A DNA stretch of 64,000 nt from Anoxybacter fermentans (GTDB taxonomy: Bacteria; Bacillota; Halanaerobiia; DY22613), in contig NZ_CP016379.1 of NCBI RefSeq assembly GCF_003991135.1, positions 3,410,001-3,474,000 of the forward strand, written 5' to 3'. Numbering within the stretch: position 1 is the stretch's first letter; every line of letters starts with the position of its first letter. The notes beneath the pieces were generated by a model. That model saw only the letters and a program-made list of their open reading frames with translations. It was not told where the DNA came from and made no database searches. The translations under genes were made by a program, and so were the position numbers. This document shows positions 5,572-61,264 of this stretch, in pieces.

Positions 5572-5791
5572 GGTTAAACTGCAAAAAGCTAATTTTCGCT
5601 TCTTGAAAAATTTTTCGAACCATCTAAAGCTTGGTTTCCACCGAAATAAGGTTTCCTAATCAAAGGGCCCTTCTGGCCTTTGATTAGCTCATCACCTCCT
5701 GTGATGAGGCCTTATTTTATCGGAAATCTCGCTAAGATGGTTTGGCGAAAAATTTCTATGTCGCTCAAAATTAGCTTTTTGCAGTATAATT
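5572..5791. repeat. Palindromic interspersed repeat, copy B
   Basis: Full-length copy (about 220 bp) from GGTTAAACTGCAAAAAGC to GCTTTTTGCAGTATAATT. The outer arms pair over most of their length. The centre holds two small hairpins, TCAAAGGGCCC..GGCCTTTGA and CTCATCACCTCCTGTGATGAG. It occupies most of the 445-bp gap between two divergent genes. Confidence 0.9.
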
Positions 5792-7009: not shown

Positions 7010-7139
7010 GATTATACTGCACAAAGCTAATTTTGAGCGGTATAGAAATTTTTCGCTAAACTATCTTAAGTGAGATCGAACTTTAGATGGTTCGAAAAAT
7101 TTCTTCTGAAGCGAAAAATTAGCTTTGTGCAGTAAAATA
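7010..7139. repeat. Palindromic interspersed repeat, copy C (short form)
   Basis: A 130-bp version. The outer arms (ACTGCACAAAGCTAATTTT ... AAAATTAGCTTTGTGC) and the second stem are kept, but the two apical hairpins are deleted. The arm variant GCACAAAGC/GCTTTGTGC and the right flank AAAATAAGATTA are shared with copy E near 22.5 kb, so C and E form a subfamily. Confidence 0.85.
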
Positions 7140-8684: not shown

Positions 8685-8906
8685 GATTTTACTGCAAAAA
8701 ACTAATTTTGAGTACCATAGAAATTTTTCGTTTAACCATATTAGTGAGATTTCAGTCGAAATAAGGCCTCATATGAGGATGTGATGAGCTAATCAAGGGC
8801 CAGGAGGGCCCATTGATTAGTGTGTCTTATTTCGACTGAAATCGAACTTTAGATGGTTCGAAAAATTTCTTTTGAAGCGAAAAATTAGCTTTTTGCAGTT
8901 TAATCA
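8685..8906. repeat. Palindromic interspersed repeat, copy D
   Basis: Full-length copy (222 bp), GATTTTACTGCAAAAAACTA to GCTTTTTGCAGTTTAATC, in the opposite orientation to copy B. ATGTAT occurs on both sides, directly at the left boundary and directly after the right boundary, as expected for a 6-7 bp target duplication. Confidence 0.9.
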
Positions 8907-22445: not shown

Positions 22446-22483
22446 TGTTTAGGAAATTATACTTTTTCGCAGGTTTATAGATA

Positions 22484-22703
22484 ATTTATCTGCACAAAGC
22501 TAATTTTGAGCGTTATTGAAATTTTTCGTTAAAACATCTTAGTGAGAACGAAGGAGAAATAAGGCCTCATCTGAGGAGTGATGAGCTAATCATGGGCCAG
22601 GAGGGCTCTTTGATTAGGGAGCCTTATTTCGACTGAGATAGGACTTTAGATAGTTCGAAAAATTTCTTTATAAAGCGGAAAATTAGCTTTGTGCAGTAAA
22701 ATA
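22484..22703. repeat. Palindromic interspersed repeat, copy E
   Basis: Full-length copy with the variant arms CTGCACAAAGCTAATTTT ... AATTAGCTTTGTGCAG. Its right flank AAAATAAGATTA and the following GTGCCTGAAAGGCATTTTG hairpin match the flank of copy C at 7.1 kb. Confidence 0.88.
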
Positions 22704-26467: not shown

Positions 26468-26684
26468 GATTAAACTGCAAAAAGCTAATTTTAAGCGATA
26501 TAAAATTTTTCGTTAAACCATCTTAGTGGGATTGAAAAGAATGGCTTCATCACAGAATGTGATGAGCTAATTAAGGATCACAAGGACCCATTGATTAGTG
26601 TGCCTTATTTTGACTGAAATCAAACTTTATATGGTTCGAAAAATTTCTTTATGAAGCGAAAAATTAGCTTTTTGTAGTAAGATC
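26468..26684. repeat. Palindromic interspersed repeat, copy F, with perfect 7-bp flanking duplication
   Basis: GATTAAACTGCAAAAAGCTA at the left and GCTTTTTGTAGTAAGATC at the right. It is bordered on both sides by ATAAGAT (26461-26467 and 26685-26691), a perfect 7-bp direct repeat as left by transposition. Confidence 0.93.
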
Positions 26685-32624: not shown

Positions 32625-32816
32625 GATTAAATTGCAAAAAGCTAATTTTGAGTTGTTTAACCATCTTAGTGAGATTGAAGGAGAAATAAGGCTTCATCAC
32701 AGTATCTGATTAATCAATTCATGGGTTGAAGCCCCATAGATTACCCTGAAATCTAACTTTAGATGGTTCAAAAAATTTCTTTATGAAGTGAAAAATTAGC
32801 TTTTTGCAGTAAAATC
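32625..32816. repeat. Palindromic interspersed repeat, copy G, with perfect 7-bp flanking duplication
   Basis: A 192-bp copy from GATTAAATTGCAAAAAGCTA to GCTTTTTGCAGTAAAATC, flanked on both sides by ATATTAG (32618-32624, 32817-32823), a perfect 7-bp direct repeat. The left arm has lost the segment present in full-length copies between AATTTTGAG and GTTTAACC. Confidence 0.93.
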
Positions 32817-35078: not shown

Positions 35079-35302
35079 GATGAAACTGCAAAAAGCTAAT
35101 TTTTCGCTTCTTGAGAAATTTTTCGAATCATCTAAAGCTCGATTTCCGTCGAAATAAGGCTTCCTGACTCAAAGGGTCCTCCTGGCCCTTAGAACTAGCT
35201 CATTACCTCCTGTGATGAGGTCTTATTTCGTCGGAAATTTCGCTAAGATGATTTGGTGAAATATTTCTATGTCGCTCAAAATTAGCTTTTTGCAGTATAA
35301 TC
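35079..35302. repeat. Palindromic interspersed repeat, copy H
   Basis: Full-length copy (224 bp) inserted between cobC and cobT, thus inside what would otherwise be one cob operon. ATATAT occurs directly at both borders, consistent with a target duplication. Confidence 0.9.
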
Positions 35303-37790: not shown

Positions 37791-38011
37791 GATTAAACTG
37801 TAAAAAGCTAATTTTGAGTGCTATTGAAATTTTTCGTTAAATCATCTTAGTGAAATTTCAGTCGAAATAAGGCCTCATCTGAGGATTGATGAGCTAATCA
37901 AAGGTCATGATGACCCTTTGATTAGTGTGCCTTATTTCAACTGAAATCGAACTTTAGATGGTTTGAAAAATTTCTTTATGAAGTAAAAAATTAGCTTTTT
38001 GCAGTAAAGGC
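37791..38011. repeat. Palindromic interspersed repeat, copy I
   Basis: Full-length copy (221 bp), GATTAAACTGTAAAAAGCTA to GCAGTAAAGGC, with ATAAT at both borders. It begins only 10 bases after the -10 box of the response-regulator gene, so it would be transcribed as a long hairpin 5' leader. Confidence 0.9.
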
Positions 38012-40520: not shown

Positions 40521-40655
40521 GGCTAAACTGTAAAAAGCTGATTTTTCGCTTCTTGAGAAATTTTTCGAACCATCTAAAGCTCGACTTCAATCTTGCTAAG
40601 ATGGTTTAGCAAAAAATTTCTATGTCGCTCAAAATTAGCTTTTTGCAGTTTAATC
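40521..40655. repeat. Palindromic interspersed repeat, copy J (short form)
   Basis: A 135-bp version, GGCTAAACTGTAAAAAGCTG to GCTTTTTGCAGTTTAATC, lacking the two apical hairpins like copy C. It lies between the kinase gene and the convergent mgtE terminator. Confidence 0.88.
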
Positions 40656-42245: not shown

Positions 42246-42321
42246 AAAAGATATTTTGCTTTTTTTTATATTATATCAAAAATCAAAAAGTCGTCAACTA
42301 GCGGAAGTATTTTGCTCTGTT

Positions 42322-42489
42322 GGTAAACTACAAAAAGCTGATTTTGAGTTGTTTAACTATCTTAATAAGATGGAAAAGAATGGTCTTATATGAGGATGTG
42401 ATAAGCTAATCGAGCTACTGAAATTGAACTTTAGTATGGTTCGAAAAATTTCTTTATGAAACGAAAAATTAGCTTTTTACTGTAAAATC
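42322..42489. repeat. Palindromic interspersed repeat, copy K (diverged, internally deleted)
   Basis: A 168-bp diverged copy, GGTAAACTACAAAAAGCTG to AGCTTTTTACTGTAAAATC, keeping outer arms and part of the inner stem. Confidence 0.82.
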
Positions 42490-44623: not shown

Positions 44624-44844
44624 GGTTAAACTGCAAAAAGCTAATTTTTCGCTTCTTGAGAAATTTTTCGAATCATCTAAAGCTCGATTTCCGCCGAAAT
44701 AGGGCTTTCTAATCAAAGGGCCCTCCTGGCTCTTGATTAGCTCATCACCTCCTGTGATGAGGCCTTATTTCGTCGGAAATCTTGCTAAGATGATTTGGCG
44801 AAAAATTTCTATGTCATTCAAAATTAGCTTTTTGCAGTATAATC
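44624..44844. repeat. Palindromic interspersed repeat, copy L
   Basis: Full-length copy (221 bp) nearly identical to copies H and P, GGTTAAACTGCAAAAAGCTA to GCTTTTTGCAGTATAATC. CATAAAAT precedes it at 44616-44623 and recurs at 44850-44857, five bases beyond the right end, a possible disturbed target duplication. Confidence 0.9.
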
Positions 44845-53383: not shown

Positions 53384-53605
53384 GGTTATACTGCAAAAAG
53401 CTAATTTTTCGCTTTTTGAGAAATTTTTCGAACCATCTAAAGCTCGATTTCAGCCGAAATAAGGCTCCCTAATCAAAGGGCCGTCCTTGGCCCTTGATTA
53501 GCTCATCACATCCTGTGATGAGGCCTTATTTCGTCTGAAATCTCGCTAAGATGGTTTAACGAAAAATTTCTATGTCGCTCAAAATTAGCTTTTTGCAGTA
53601 CAATC
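53384..53605. repeat. Palindromic interspersed repeat, copy N
   Basis: Full-length copy (222 bp), GGTTATACTGCAAAAAGCTA to GCTTTTTGCAGTACAATC. Flanks AAGATAT (53377-53383) and AGGATAT (53606-53612) are a 7-bp direct repeat with one difference. Confidence 0.92.
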
Positions 53606-53673: not shown

Positions 53674-53891
53674 GGTTGCACTGTAAAAATCTAATTTTTC
53701 GCTTAAAAGAAACTATTCTAACAATATTTAAAGTTCAATTTTGGTTAAAAGTTTCCAGACTTAAAAGGTTGTTAAGGTGCTGTTGATTAGCTTATTGCCT
53801 GTGATGAGGACATATTTAGACTGAGGTCTTGCCAGGATGTTTTAGTGAAAAAGTTCTATGCTGCTCGAAATTAGCTTTTTGTAGTATATAA
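53674..53891. repeat. Palindromic interspersed repeat, copy O (diverged)
   Basis: An older copy only 70 bp after copy N: GGTTGCACTGTAAAAATCTA to TTAGCTTTTTGTAGTATATAATT, with many mismatches between arms. The different decay states of N and O show that the family spread at different times. Confidence 0.82.
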
Positions 53892-54848: not shown

Positions 54849-55105
54849 CTTGCAAACATAATTTAGTTGGAAGAACAGATTTTAATTCATCATTTTGGGT
54901 CCTGGTATCTTTAAATTATAAATTATTTGAAAAAATTCTTTAATCAAATTAGTTAACAAACTAATTAAATTTTCTTGACTTGCCAATAATTTTTGTGATT
55001 TATAAGTGGAATCTTCTTTTAAGTTGAGATTTTTGTTGGATAAACAGTTATGTTGATCGCTCAAAGAGGATTCCTTTTAAAATATTTTTTAGGAGGTGTA
55101 ATGCA

Positions 55106-55927
55106 ATGAAATTCTTCCTTGAACATTTTAAGAAATTAATCTGGTTAATAAGAGAAAATAAAGCAGTTTGGTTTTATTTGCTGCTAGTAGTGATTGGTTT
55201 TCCATTTTTGCAAATCTATTATTACCAAAAGTCTATTTTCTCAGCAATGTTACTTTTAGTAATATATTTATTTTCTATGCTAATAATGCTGGCTTTAATT
55301 TATTTTCCTACAGCAAAGATTTCAGTTGAAGAAAAAAAGATAGCAGCTTATAAACTTTCCCCATACTTGACATTATTTCTACTTTTATTATATCAAATTA
55401 TGGTAAGATTTATAATTAGGAATTTCTCGTTTATGTATAGAAAGTTGGTTTTAAAAATAATCTGGGTTATAGGATTAAACCTATTAGTAATTCTATATGG
55501 TCATATCGTTTTAAAGATAAAATTTAAAGATTTGGGTTTTGGATGGCGCCATATATATATAATTGTTCCCCTTTGTTTGGTAGGTACGCTTGATGTAGTT
55601 TTTAAAGGTTTTAAAGATTTTAGTGATGGGGTGCTACTTGTTATTTTTCACAAGTTCATAGCTGCTTTTTATGAAGAAATTCTTTATCGGGGTTATCTTT
55701 TTACAACTTTGCGACGTATATTTAAAAAGCCAGTTAATGCAATAGTAATTAGTGGTATTTTATTTGGTTTTTCCCATGTCAGTGTTTTGAGTAACGAACC
55801 AATTTTAAAGCAAATTTTAATACGTATTGAAACATGTTTTTTTGGAATGATTTTCTCCTTTATCTATTACAAAACAAAAAGTTTAATTCCATCTACAGTT
55901 TATCATGCTGTAATAAATCTGCTTTAA
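55106..55927 (+). CDS. CPBP family intramembrane metalloprotease, copy 1
   Basis: A 273-aa polytopic membrane protein with about eight hydrophobic segments and the CPBP (CAAX/bacteriocin-processing) active site: AAFYEEILYRGYLF with Glu190, Glu191 and Arg195, FGFSHV with His224, and YHAVINLL at the C-terminus. Such proteases process or confer immunity to peptides in bacteriocin systems. It is a close paralogue of the gene at 59181, sharing the first 40 residues almost exactly. AGGAGG with TGTAATGCA precedes ATG 55106. Directly downstream is the tolC-like pseudogene. Codon use is very AT-rich compared with the nad and pan operons, consistent with transfer. Confidence 0.88.
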   Translation: MKFFLEHFKKLIWLIRENKAVWFYLLLVVIGFPFLQIYYYQKSIFSAMLLLVIYLFSMLIMLALIYFPTAKISVEEKKIAAYKLSPYLTLFLLLLYQIMVRFIIRNFSFMYRKLVLKIIWVIGLNLLVILYGHIVLKIKFKDLGFGWRHIYIIVPLCLVGTLDVVFKGFKDFSDGVLLVIFHKFIAAFYEEILYRGYLFTTLRRIFKKPVNAIVISGILFGFSHVSVLSNEPILKQILIRIETCFFGMIFSFIYYKTKSLIPSTVYHAVINLL

Positions 55928-55954
55928 AATTTGGTGTATTAAAAGGAGGTTACT

Positions 55955-57272
55955 ATGAAAGAAAAAAATCATTATTCTAATTCTTTTATTAATTATTCAA
56001 ATATCAACTAAAATTTTAGCTTTAGAGATAGACGAGCCCCTGAATATGAAACAATGTATTCAAATTGCATTAGAAAATCATCCGGACGTTATTGTTGCTC
56101 AAAATGAAATTATGGAAGCACAATTAAAATATGAAGAAGTTACCTGTGGTTCTGTCAATGACCAGTCACCATATCAAATTCAAAAGTTAAAGCAAGAAAT
56201 TGATGATAAAAAATCTGCTTTAAATTTAAAAAATATAAATAATTATAAATGTATATACAACTTACTATGATTGGGTTAAAGCGGTAAAGCTATATGAACA
56301 GAGTTTACTGGCTAAACAAAGGTGTAAATTACAACTAGATGAGGCTAAAATTAAATATCAAGATGGTTTGATTTCACAAATTGAGTTATTGACAGCCAGT
56401 AAGGCCTTAGATCAGTGTATAAGGACAAGTAAAAAATATGAATTTTTAAAACAAGTTACAAAAAGAAATCTATATTTACAAATGAATTATTATACTGAAA
56501 AAGATCTGAATATCCAAATAGAGGAAATTGTTATAGATAAGGAAATACTTCCTGACTTAAAGTCAGGCATTCAGTCAGCATTGAATAACCGGATTGAATT
56601 AAAATCTCTTCAGCGAGATATTGAAAATCAAAAATATATCTTAAATATTTTTGAAAGTACTGATGTTTCTAAATTAGATAAGATCGAGGCTGAGAATAAA
56701 TTAAAAGAACTTGAGACCAATCTTATATACCTTAAAAATAAAATTATTTCAGAAGTATATCAAGCTTATTATAATTTACAGCAGCTAAATTTATCAATTA
56801 AGGATAAAGAAGATAGCTTAAATCTTCTTAAAAAAAATGGGAATCTTTTAAACTTCAATATGAAAATGGGTTAGTATTTTTTCTAGAATTAATAAATATT
56901 AACGAAGAATTAACTAAAGCTGAAAGTGAATATATTGATCTGATTTTTCAGAATCAATTAAGTTTATGATCAAACTGCAAAAAGCTAATTTTTCGCTTCT
57001 TGAGAAATTTTTCGAATCATCTAAAGCTCGATTTCCGCCGAAATAAGGCTTCCTAATCAAAGGGCCCTCCTGGCCCTTGATTAGCTCATCACCTCCTGTG
57101 ATGAGGCCTTATTTCGTCGGAAATCGAGCTAAGATGATTTGGCGAAAAATTTCTATGTTGCTCAGAATTAGCTTTTTGCAGTATAATCAGTTTATTAGAA
57201 TGGAGAAGAGTGACAGGGAAATTAGGATCACTGTTAGAAGAAAATTTAATTAAAGAAAGTGATATTAAATAA
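55955..57272 (+). pseudogene. Broken TolC-like outer-membrane efflux protein gene
   Basis: Piecing the frames together gives a signal-peptide start (IIILILLLIIQISTKILALEIDEP), MKQCIQIALENHPDVIVAQNEI, YYDWVKAVKLYEQSLLAKQ, KIKYQDGLISQIELLTASKAL, FKLQYENGLVFFLEL and LLEWRRVTGKLGSLLEE, the pattern of a TolC/outer-membrane efflux protein. The reading frame is broken three times: a run of seven A near 55965, near 56245, and a run of eight A near 56835. It is also cut by palindromic repeat P at 56968-57188. TolC implies an outer membrane. Clustered homopolymer shifts could be sequencing errors, but the insertion shows the gene is dead in any case. Confidence 0.85.
56968..57188. mobile_element. Palindromic interspersed repeat, copy P, inserted into the tolC pseudogene
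   Basis: A 221-bp copy, GATCAAACTGCAAAAAGCTA to GCTTTTTGCAGTATAATC, flanked by perfect 7-bp repeats AGTTTAT (56961-56967, 57189-57195). Deleting the element and one AGTTTAT joins FQNQLSL to LEWRRVTGKL in frame and restores the TolC C-terminus. This is the clearest evidence that the family transposes with a 7-bp target duplication. Confidence 0.95.
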
Positions 57273-57377: not shown

Positions 57378-57425
57378 TGAGAAAATATTTTCATGTATTG
57401 TTTCTGATTTTTTTAATTTGTTAGA
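57378..57425 (+). pseudogene. Truncated start of a lipoprotein or secreted protein gene
   Basis: ATG 57378 begins MRKYFHVLFLIFLIC and stops at TAG. It is preceded by the plausible ribosome site GTGGAGAA. The sequence is a signal peptide or lipoprotein leader with the Cys in lipobox position, cut off where the second inverted-repeat element and IS1595 follow. It lies after tolC, where a membrane-fusion protein would be expected, but too little remains to say. Confidence 0.45.
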
Positions 57426-57450
57426 GACCTCTCATTAAAACCGGTTTGTC

Positions 57451-57549
57451 ATTGACATGGAGCCTCTATGGGTATGGTTATTAGCCTAGGGGCGAAGCAG
57501 TTAGGCTATGCCATTTCAAGGCTATCCTACCCATTTTCTCCATGTCAAT
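57451..57549. repeat. Second inverted-repeat family, copy 2
   Basis: ATTGACATGGAGCCTCTATGG ... ACCCATTTTCTCCATGTCAAT-type ends form an imperfect inverted repeat, with an inner hairpin TTAGCCTAGGGGCGAAGCAGTTAGGCTA. It is the reverse-oriented relative of 54588-54687. Confidence 0.68.
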
Positions 57550-57597
57550 GATTCGCTTCGCCAAACCTAAACTTTGAGGAACTAATATTTATTAACA

Positions 57598-58614
57598 AAA
57601 TATGGCTATGCAGTTAACTCAGCATAGGTAATCGTAGAAGTAGAAGTGCATGCTACTGAAAGCCTGTCAAACAGCCAGTTTTGCATCCAACGACAATTAA
57701 AACAATAACAAAATTCTTCCAAATAAGACTGAAAATGCTTTCTGCTTAATCCATGATAAGTACCTTCTATAAAAGCCTTGGCATTACCAATTACAGTATG
57801 TAGCCATTTGAGAAAATGGGAATCCTCATGAGGATCATAGTGTTGAAACTTGTGCTCAAACTTACCATTTTTCCCAAGCTGTCTGTAGGAATGGTAAGCA
57901 TCACTGGATATCTTCGACCCAGCTTGAATGTTGCGACAGGCAAAATCCCCTAAAGTTGAAGTTTTAATATCAGATACAACTTCCATTTTCAAATACTTAG
58001 GGCGGCCTTCTTCATCAAGAGATATAGCACATATAACTTTAGATTTTTCTGTTCCACGACCACGTTTACCGCCCCTGGTGGGACTCCCAAAAAATGTATC
58101 ATCAATTTCCACAATACCTGATAACATATATCGAGCGTTACGGTCCCTCATAGCCTTTCTGATTTTATGGAGCATAAGCTATGCAGTTTTGTATGTTACA
58201 TCAATTTCTTTAGCTAATGTCATTGCAGATATACCTCTTTTATCCCGAGCAGCAAGATATATAGCTAGAAACCATTTAACCAATGGAGTCCTGGTTCTAT
58301 GCATGATGGTTCCTGCAGTAATTGAAGCCTGATACCGACATTCAGGATTGGCACATTGAATCAATTTGCGGGATACGATATGATAGCCTTTAGGATGAGA
58401 ACATTTTGGGCAAACAAAACCTTCAGGCCCCCGTATGTTATATAGATACTGGTAGCATGCTTCTGTCGGTAGCGAATTTCTTTTGGAAAGCTATAAGAGA
58501 AAGCTTTTGATTTTTCACTGAAACCACTCCCAATCGAATTAGTGTTTGATTATATTATACCAAACATTTGTTCGAATTAGAAGAGGTTGCTGAGTAAAAG
58601 GTATAGCCATATTT
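57598..58614 (-). mobile_element. Degenerate IS1595-family insertion sequence
   Basis: A roughly 1017-bp element with terminal inverted repeats AAATATGGCTATGCAGTTAACTCAGCA (left, given in part: AAATATGGCTATGC) and, complemented on the right, AAATATGGCTATACC...ACTCAGCA. It contains one transposase gene on the minus strand, now inactive. I could not establish a convincing target duplication, so the borders may be a few bases off. Confidence 0.8.
57606..58519 (-). pseudogene. IS1595-family transposase, frameshifted and with an amber stop
   Basis: The minus strand encodes an IS1595 transposase in three pieces. An N-terminal part, NQKLSLIAFQKKFAT, shifts frame near 58470 into TEACYQYLYNIRGPEGFVCPKC (zinc ribbon). 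The middle (AGTIMHRTRTPLVKWFLAIYLAARDK, IDVTYKTA) ends in TAG at 58179-58181. The main ISXO2-like DDE domain (IVEIDDTFFGSPTRGGKRGRG, SDAYHSYRQLG, HFLKWLHTVIGNAKAFIEGTYHG) then resumes in the same frame. The expected residue at the TAG is the Trp of YKTAW, so TGG mutated to TAG. The gene is non-functional. Confidence 0.9.
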
Positions 58615-59153: not shown

Positions 59154-59180
59154 AATATTTTTTTTGGGAGGTGTAATGCA

Positions 59181-60005
59181 ATGAAATTCTTCCTTGAACA
59201 TTTTAAGAAATTAATCTGGTTAATAAGAGAAAATAAAGCAGTTTGGTTTTATTTGCTGCTAGTAGTGATTGGTATGCCATTTTTGCAAATCTATTATTAC
59301 CACAAGTCTATTTTTTCAGCAATGTTATTTTTAGTAATATATTTATTTTCTATGCTAGTAATGCTGGCTTTGATTTATTTTCCCACAGCAAAGATTTCAG
59401 TTGAAGAAAAAAAGCTAGCAGCTCATAAACTTTCCCCATACTTGATATTAATTCTACTCTTATTATATAATATTATGGAAGAATTTATAATTATGAATTA
59501 CTTATTATTTATGTATAGAAAGTTTATTTTAAAAATAATCTTATTTATAGGACGAACCCTATCAGTAATTCTATTTGGTCAAATCGTTTTAAAAATAAAA
59601 ATTAAAGATTTGGGTTTTGGATGGCGCCATACATATGTAATTATCCCCCTTTGTTTGTTAGGTACGCTTGATATAGTTTTTAAAGGTTTTAAAGATTTTA
59701 GTGCTGGGGTGCCGCTTGTTATTTTTTACTGGGTCTTAGTTGCTTTTCGTGAAGAAATTTTTTATCGGGGTTATCTTTTTACAACTTTGCGACGTATATT
59801 TAAAAACCCAGTTAATTCAATAGTAATTAGTGGTATTTTATTTGGTTTTGCCCATGTCAATTTTTGGATTAATGCACCAATTTTAAAGCAAATTTTAATG
59901 ACTATTGAACAATGTTTTTTTGGAATGATTTTTTCCTTTATTTATTACAAAACAAAAAGTTTAATCCCATCTATAATTTATCATACTGTGGTAAATCTAT
60001 TTTAA
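59181..60005 (+). CDS. CPBP family intramembrane metalloprotease, copy 2
   Basis: A 274-aa paralogue of the protease at 55106, about 80 percent alike by eye, with the same active-site set: LVAFREEIFYRGYLF, FGFAHV and YHTVVNLF. The N-terminal 30 residues are identical in both. It has the same GGAGGTGTAATGCA ribosome region, duplicated at the DNA level. It follows the Cys/Asp-rich peptide gene by 27 bases, so peptide processing, export or immunity is the natural hypothesis. After its stop the DNA matches the start of the tolC gene for about 50 bases and is then cut off. Confidence 0.88.
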   Translation: MKFFLEHFKKLIWLIRENKAVWFYLLLVVIGMPFLQIYYYHKSIFSAMLFLVIYLFSMLVMLALIYFPTAKISVEEKKLAAHKLSPYLILILLLLYNIMEEFIIMNYLLFMYRKFILKIILFIGRTLSVILFGQIVLKIKIKDLGFGWRHTYVIIPLCLLGTLDIVFKGFKDFSAGVPLVIFYWVLVAFREEIFYRGYLFTTLRRIFKNPVNSIVISGILFGFAHVNFWINAPILKQILMTIEQCFFGMIFSFIYYKTKSLIPSIIYHTVVNLF

Positions 60006-60055
60006 AATTTTGGCTTTAGAGATAGATGAGCTACTGAATTTGAAACAATGTAACT
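60006..60055 (+). pseudogene. Truncated duplicate of the 5' part of the tolC-like gene
   Basis: AAATTTTGGCTTTAGAGATA and on to GAAACAATGTAA match 56010-56060 (LALEIDEPLNMKQC) of the tolC pseudogene with a few changes. The match ends where an IS21-like remnant begins. It proves that the duplicated block was CPBP gene plus tolC, and that the second tolC was deleted. Confidence 0.8.
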
Positions 60056-60399: not shown

Positions 60400-60493
60400 T
60401 ACGTATAAAATAATTATTAAATAAAAATTGACAAAAAACCATTTATAGTATATTCGTATTTAAGAAGTATAATATGATAAGGAGGAAATGATA

Positions 60494-61264
60494 TTGCGAG
60501 TGATTTTTGAATTTGTTTCTGAAAATAAATTAGTTTTGCCTATTCATTATAATCATATTCTTCAGGGTTTAATTTATCATTCCTTTTCTGATAGAACTCT
60601 GGCTGATTTTTTACACAATAATGGTTATCAATTGAATAAACGAAAATTTAAGCTATTTTCTTTTTCTCGTTTAATGGGAGATTTTATTATTGATAATCAA
60701 AATAAACAAATTATTTTTGAATCACCTGTGAAGTTTGTTGTCACATCTGTAAAACCTGTAATCATACAGGATATTACTTCAAATATAATTAAAAACAATT
60801 ATGTCCGTATTGGAAAAGAACATTTGTTTTTAAAAGAAGTCAAATTTGAATCTTTTAATGTTGAGAGTAACAAAATGTATATTAAAATGTTATCACCTGT
60901 AGTTACTTATAAGACTTATGAAGCCAATGGAAGCAAAAAAACCCATTATTATTCTCCCTGGGAACCGGAATTTGAAGAACAAATTAAAAATAATCTTTTG
61001 AAAAAATATGAGTTAGTAGAGGGTAAGAAACCAGATAATTTGGAATTTAGTATCAAGCCACTATTTAAAAAAGAAACTGCTAAACCAAATATAATTTTAT
61101 ATCGCGATTTTGTTATTAAAGGTTGGTCAGGAATTTTTGAACTCTCTGGAGACCTTAAACTATTAAAAATTGCATATGACATTGGTATTGGAGCCAAAAA
61201 TTCACTTGGTTTTGGGTGTTTTGAAATTCTTACTAGTAAGTCATCTAAAAATTCTCGAAGATAA
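60494..61264 (+). CDS. cas6: CRISPR-associated endoribonuclease Cas6 (orphan)
   Basis: A 256-aa RAMP-type protein. The C-terminal glycine-rich loop IGIGAKNSLGFGCFEIL (about residues 232-248) is the Cas6 hallmark, and the N-terminal RVIFEFVSENKLVLPIHYNHILQGLIYHSF matches the first ferredoxin-like fold, with His near 17-18 and 25-30 as candidate catalytic residues. Cas6 cuts the CRISPR precursor RNA within each repeat. No array or other cas gene lies within at least 3.5 kb to the right or anywhere else in the window, so it is an orphan or acts in trans. The AAGGAGG site favours TTG 60494 over ATG 60488. Confidence 0.88.
   Translation: MRVIFEFVSENKLVLPIHYNHILQGLIYHSFSDRTLADFLHNNGYQLNKRKFKLFSFSRLMGDFIIDNQNKQIIFESPVKFVVTSVKPVIIQDITSNIIKNNYVRIGKEHLFLKEVKFESFNVESNKMYIKMLSPVVTYKTYEANGSKKTHYYSPWEPEFEEQIKNNLLKKYELVEGKKPDNLEFSIKPLFKKETAKPNIILYRDFVIKGWSGIFELSGDLKLLKIAYDIGIGAKNSLGFGCFEILTSKSSKNSRR

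Follow-up and report, generated by a model that had tools for sequence, protein, structure and literature searches.

The window analyzed here is a 64,000-bp stretch (positions 3,410,001 to 3,474,000) of the single-contig genome of Anoxybacter fermentans (3,557,532 bp). It includes a TolC-like gene interrupted by a 221-bp imperfect palindrome, with the following features at the locus.

55980..57272 (approximate extent), + strand: TolC-like (outer-membrane efflux) pseudogene bearing the insertion; upstream of that, its frame changes at least twice
56961..56967, + strand: left target-site duplication of the tolC copy, AGTTTAT
56968..57188, + strand: MITE copy in the tolC-like gene, 221 bp, imperfect palindrome with ends GATCAAACTGCAAAAAGC...GCTTTTTGCAGTATAATC
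57189..57195, + strand: right target-site duplication of the tolC copy, AGTTTAT

The insertion in the tolC-like gene

A sequence-only reading of this locus had reported that AGTTTAT borders the element on both sides and that excision of the element with one duplicate rejoins the TolC frame. Both statements hold on re-reading, with the repeats at 56961-56967 and 57189-57195 and the joined flanks translating as ...FQNQLSL|LEWRRVTGKL.... An alignment of eight TolC-like proteins, drawn from this genome and related ones, runs through that junction with no gap, and a match to the outer-membrane efflux profile ends, weakly (E 0.029), across it. No open reading frame (ORF) in the tolC copy of the element reaches 80 aa.

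In the joined-flank reading, the tolC-like gene shifts frame at least twice upstream of the insertion, so the MITE need not have inactivated the gene. Judged by its reading frames, the gene is a pseudogene for reasons besides the insertion, and either lesion may be the older. We note that the window also contains a diverged tandem duplication (55079-56058 and 59154-60052, ∼90 to 95% identical) that takes in a gene for a CPBP (Rce1-like) protease and the beginning of the tolC-like gene; because it stops short of the insertion point, it supplies no empty site.

Copy number and target-site duplications

The 19-bp terminus of the element occurs 30 times in the window with at most 2 mismatches and is absent from shuffled sequence. 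The other copies identified in the window are listed below.

5572..5791, + strand: MITE copy
7010..7139, + strand: MITE copy, internally deleted
8685..8905, + strand: MITE copy, 6-bp duplication ATGTAT
22483..22703, + strand: MITE copy
26468..26684, + strand: MITE copy F, exact duplication ATAAGAT
32625..32816, + strand: MITE copy G, exact duplication ATATTAG
35079..35302, + strand: MITE copy, 6-bp duplication ATATAT
37791..38011, + strand: MITE copy
40521..40655, + strand: MITE copy, internally deleted
42321..42489, + strand: MITE copy, internally deleted
44624..44844, + strand: MITE copy
53384..53605, + strand: MITE copy N, duplication AAGATAT/AGGATAT with one mismatch
53674..53891, + strand: MITE copy, strongly diverged

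Across the whole 3.56-Mb genome, the terminus was found 551 times in forward and 563 times in reverse orientation, for a total of 1,114 occurrences and therefore ∼557 copies, while a reversed-pattern control returned 0. Extrapolation from a 464-kb genome sample (sampling took in 20 stretches of 20 kb), with more mismatches allowed, gave ∼650 copies, and the 85 paired copies of that sample occupy 3.58% of it. The family thus comprises about 550 to 650 copies and ∼3.6% of the genomic DNA. Full-length copies are mostly 219 to 224 bp, many others are internally deleted, and the terminal inverted repeat GRTTAAACTGCAAAAAGCTAATTTT is present, inverted, at both ends. Sampled copies diverge by ∼3 to 30% from the consensus, with a median pairwise identity of ∼88% and 98.6% for the closest pair. 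None of 60 relatives searched with the terminus had more than 11 matches, and the full element had no match in plasmid and phage collections.

Copies F and G had been credited with perfect 7-bp duplications, and copy N with one containing a single mismatch, and we read all three in the same way (ATAAGAT/ATAAGAT, ATATTAG/ATATTAG, and AAGATAT versus AGGATAT). We then examined 103 copies genome-wide with ends set at GRTTAA...WTAATC, using randomly re-paired right flanks as the control. Exact flush duplications of 6 to 8 bp were present in 44 of the 103, against ∼2 expected. The longest flush match was an exact 7-mer in 18 copies (0.36 expected), exact flush 6-mers were seen in 25 (1.5 expected), one copy had an 8-bp duplication, and other registers held little beyond the same repeats shifted. 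A duplication of 7 bp therefore stands for the tolC copy and copies F and G but not as a fixed length for the family, in which it ranges from 6 to 8 bp. The flanks prefer A and then T beside each end, which points to a target of the form AT(N2-4)AT.

About half of the copies now lack an exact duplication, which counts against the transposition model developed below. Among full-length copies, exact duplications were retained in 12 of 21 in the third nearest the consensus, 9 of 22 in the middle third and 7 of 22 in the most diverged third, a modest trend toward loss with divergence. A paralogous empty site was also found for another copy (L049, 6050-6235): the paralogue of the sequence around it (L032, 1894-2002; 78% identical) is free of the element and reads ATTAGAT once, whereas at the occupied site ATTAGAT stands on the right and, with 3 bp inserted, on the left.

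The sequence-only reading had further proposed that the duplications fix the ends of the element and reflect transposition rather than recombination or convergent hairpins. This is borne out by the flush duplications genome-wide, the ungapped TolC homologues, the paralogous single-copy ATTAGAT site, and the intact insertion sequences (ISs) described below, which have the same ends and duplication lengths. Gene conversion or recombination among the repeats, in place of transposition, would fit the high identity of some copies (up to 98.6%) as the means of spread, but it does not create fresh 6- to 8-bp duplications of differing targets flush with fixed ends; with both differing flush duplications and single-copy empty sites in hand, we regard it as exceedingly improbable.

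Related insertion sequences and the probable source of the transposase

We searched the genome for DDE transposases and checked their flanks for the MITE ends. One 1,650-bp IS (L082, 911-2560) is enclosed by the 16-bp ends of the MITE, with 1 mismatch between the two ends, and pieces of its transposase match PF13751, PF05598, and the IS1182 model NF033551. Its reading frame is broken and, in alignment with intact relatives, lacks residues ∼110 to 160, a stretch that we take, from DDE transposases generally, to hold the first catalytic aspartate. A second, more decayed remnant with the same ends is present at L084. Neither of these two source-like ISs has an exact duplication, and searches of the genome with its own transposase piece and with an intact 530-aa relative recovered no further copy. 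The only transposase genes found with matching ends are dead, and the transposase has apparently been lost.

Two other candidate movers were rejected. An IS1595-type transposase ORF (PF12762) lies near the tolC copy in the window at 57606-58175 (− strand), beside a separate palindrome at 57425-57575 (CATTGACATGGAG...CTCCATGTCAATG), but neither IS1595 locus is bounded by MITE ends, and the MITE-type ends seen within these loci belong to separate MITE copies. An abundant 521-aa transposase (∼20 copies) has ends that are instead GGGGCTGTCCCAAAAGT-like.

A scan of genome contigs with the transposase piece from A. fermentans gave no match, and a second scan gave matches in Halanaerobium saccharolyticum and in one Halanaerobiales MAG. 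H. saccharolyticum has two intact 1,870-bp ISs (L087 and L096, the same as L102 and L103); their 16-bp ends, GATTGCACTGCGAAAA, are perfect, and the target duplications read ATAGAT and ATTTTAAT. Other ISs of the L087 branch in Halanaerobiia are flanked by ATTATT, AACTAT, ATATTAT, ATATAT, TTAAACC, and TTTATTT, and the duplications of these relatives, like those of the MITE, fall into classes of 6, 7, and 8 bp. The 530-aa L087 transposase exceeds the cutoffs of both PF13751 and PF05598 and has NF033551 as its best-scoring model (positions 35-487 of 488), but at 172.7 bits it falls short of the curated cutoff of 270, and we therefore refer to it as IS1182-like rather than as a curated IS1182 member. 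D, D, and E motifs are visible in the alignment and are presumably the catalytic residues of the DDE order.

More divergent IS1182-like ISs (L091, L092, L094, L095, and L100) have termini of the G[AG]TT...CAAAAA type, and the exact 6- to 7-bp duplications at all of these except L095 (4 of 5) suggest that they form a coherent subgroup. Another Halanaerobiia genus (G047) harbors an unrelated MITE of ∼100 bp with the same ends as the A. fermentans element (GGTTGYACTGCAAAAAGT) and duplications that include ATAGTAT and ATAAAT; its loci (L105, L107, L110, L111, and L112) have 6- to 7-bp duplications.

The ends of the element, its duplications, the ends and duplication lengths of its IS relatives, and the two decayed source-like ISs are all directly observed, and the best explanation is that the element is, almost certainly, a MITE: a nonautonomous 221-bp foldback element moved by an IS1182-like transposase with duplication of 6 to 8 bp. 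We infer that a DDE transposase of the IS1182-like subgroup recognized ends of the form G[A/G]TTNNACTGCRAAAA, mobilized the MITE in trans, and would have joined it across a 6- to 8-bp staggered cut at AT-rich AT(N2-4)AT targets, giving rise to the 6- to 8-bp duplications. Loss of the transposase would then have ended the burst, and the copies are presumably immobile now.

Folding, genomic placement, and comparison with known elements

The consensus is predicted to fold very stably (about −107 to −110 kcal/mol), with a pair of inner hairpins on a single long stem, and one copy (53418-53572, − strand) matches the TwoAYGGAY RNA family (RF01731) at 51.7 against a gathering score of 43. These properties raise the alternative that the repeats are a structured RNA (TwoAYGGAY or a different cis-regulatory hairpin) whose origin or spread served regulation and whose flanking repeats are due to chance. 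Changes that keep a pair through double substitution are also twice as frequent as in shuffles (62 versus 29.7), but relatedness among copies inflates this count, so that it is no evidence for a selected RNA, and single changes that break a pair are far more numerous (293). In a whole-genome search with RF01731, that one MITE copy alone passed the gathering threshold, so the match is probably due to chance, and we rejected a TwoAYGGAY identity for the MITE. Together with flush duplications at ∼20 times the chance level and MITE ends that match IS ends, this leaves the structured-RNA alternative largely refuted already and very improbable. The match shows that foldback elements call for care in automatic annotation.

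Placement in the genome bears on a second alternative, in which the elements are MITEs by origin and a subset of copies has come to work as RNA-processing sites or as transcription terminators between genes. Well inside ORFs of at least 100 aa (simple longest-ORF calls rather than curated annotation) we found 0 of the 85 sampled copies but 73% of random points, and most copies sit between tandem genes; the strong hairpin is likewise compatible with such a role. Absence from ORF interiors is, however, to be expected if purifying selection removes copies that disrupt genes, and stem mutations are mostly uncompensated. We consider this secondary role improbable. A broader scenario, which we regard as unlikely, is that the family is a stranded burst of ∼550 to 650 copies, making up 3.6% of the chromosome, that was driven by an IS1182-like subgroup with 6- to 8-bp duplications and has outlived its only transposase, with the hairpins perhaps now serving as intergenic transcript ends.

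The element is a MITE and so ordinary in kind, and several independent tests confirm that identity. Bacterial MITEs are seldom this dense, and the Anoxybacter element is unusual in its copy number and in the apparent loss of its transposase. In a 2024 review of prokaryotic MITEs, the highest copy number found was the 711 copies of ERIC in Photorhabdus luminescens, and Correia elements exceed 120 copies in Neisseria gonorrhoeae (PMC10969869); like the Anoxybacter element, both are intergenic, palindromic, high-copy MITEs, but their ends, targets, and hosts are different. Chunjie, a 235-bp MITE in Geobacter uraniireducens (PMC10969869), resembles the Anoxybacter element in having duplications and many deleted copies, with one Chunjie copy inside a gene cluster, but it has ∼38 copies whose ends are conserved and resides in a different host. 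Among the papers covered by our literature search, none described such elements in Halanaerobium or Anoxybacter.

Among IS1182-family systems, the MITEs partnered with ISMac2 in Methanosarcina acetivorans (160 to 169 bp, 7 to 14 copies, duplications of 0 to 4 bp; PMC3852290) are likewise short and nonautonomous, and their terminal repeats are those of an IS1182-type IS, but set against the ∼557 or more copies and 6- to 8-bp duplications here they are few, and their targets are duplicated by 4 bp or not at all. IS1272, also of the IS1182 family, takes the place of inverted-repeat targets without any duplication (PMC5678879); it shares an IS1182-type transposase and 16-bp terminal repeats with the subgroup described here, which makes 6- to 8-bp duplications. 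Our comparisons indicate that one branch of IS1182-like ISs duplicates 6 to 8 bp of its target. The MITE and its likely source IS can now be compared side by side with intact relatives of that IS and with an independent MITE that has matching ends, and an L087-type transposase with the 221-bp element provides a defined pair for asking what limits MITE bursts in bacteria.

As to other features nearby, a Cas6-type protein (PF01881) is encoded in the window at 60488-61264 (+ strand), and near L037 (5240-6130) CRISPR-like repeats occur together with another Cas6-like ORF, recognized by eye.
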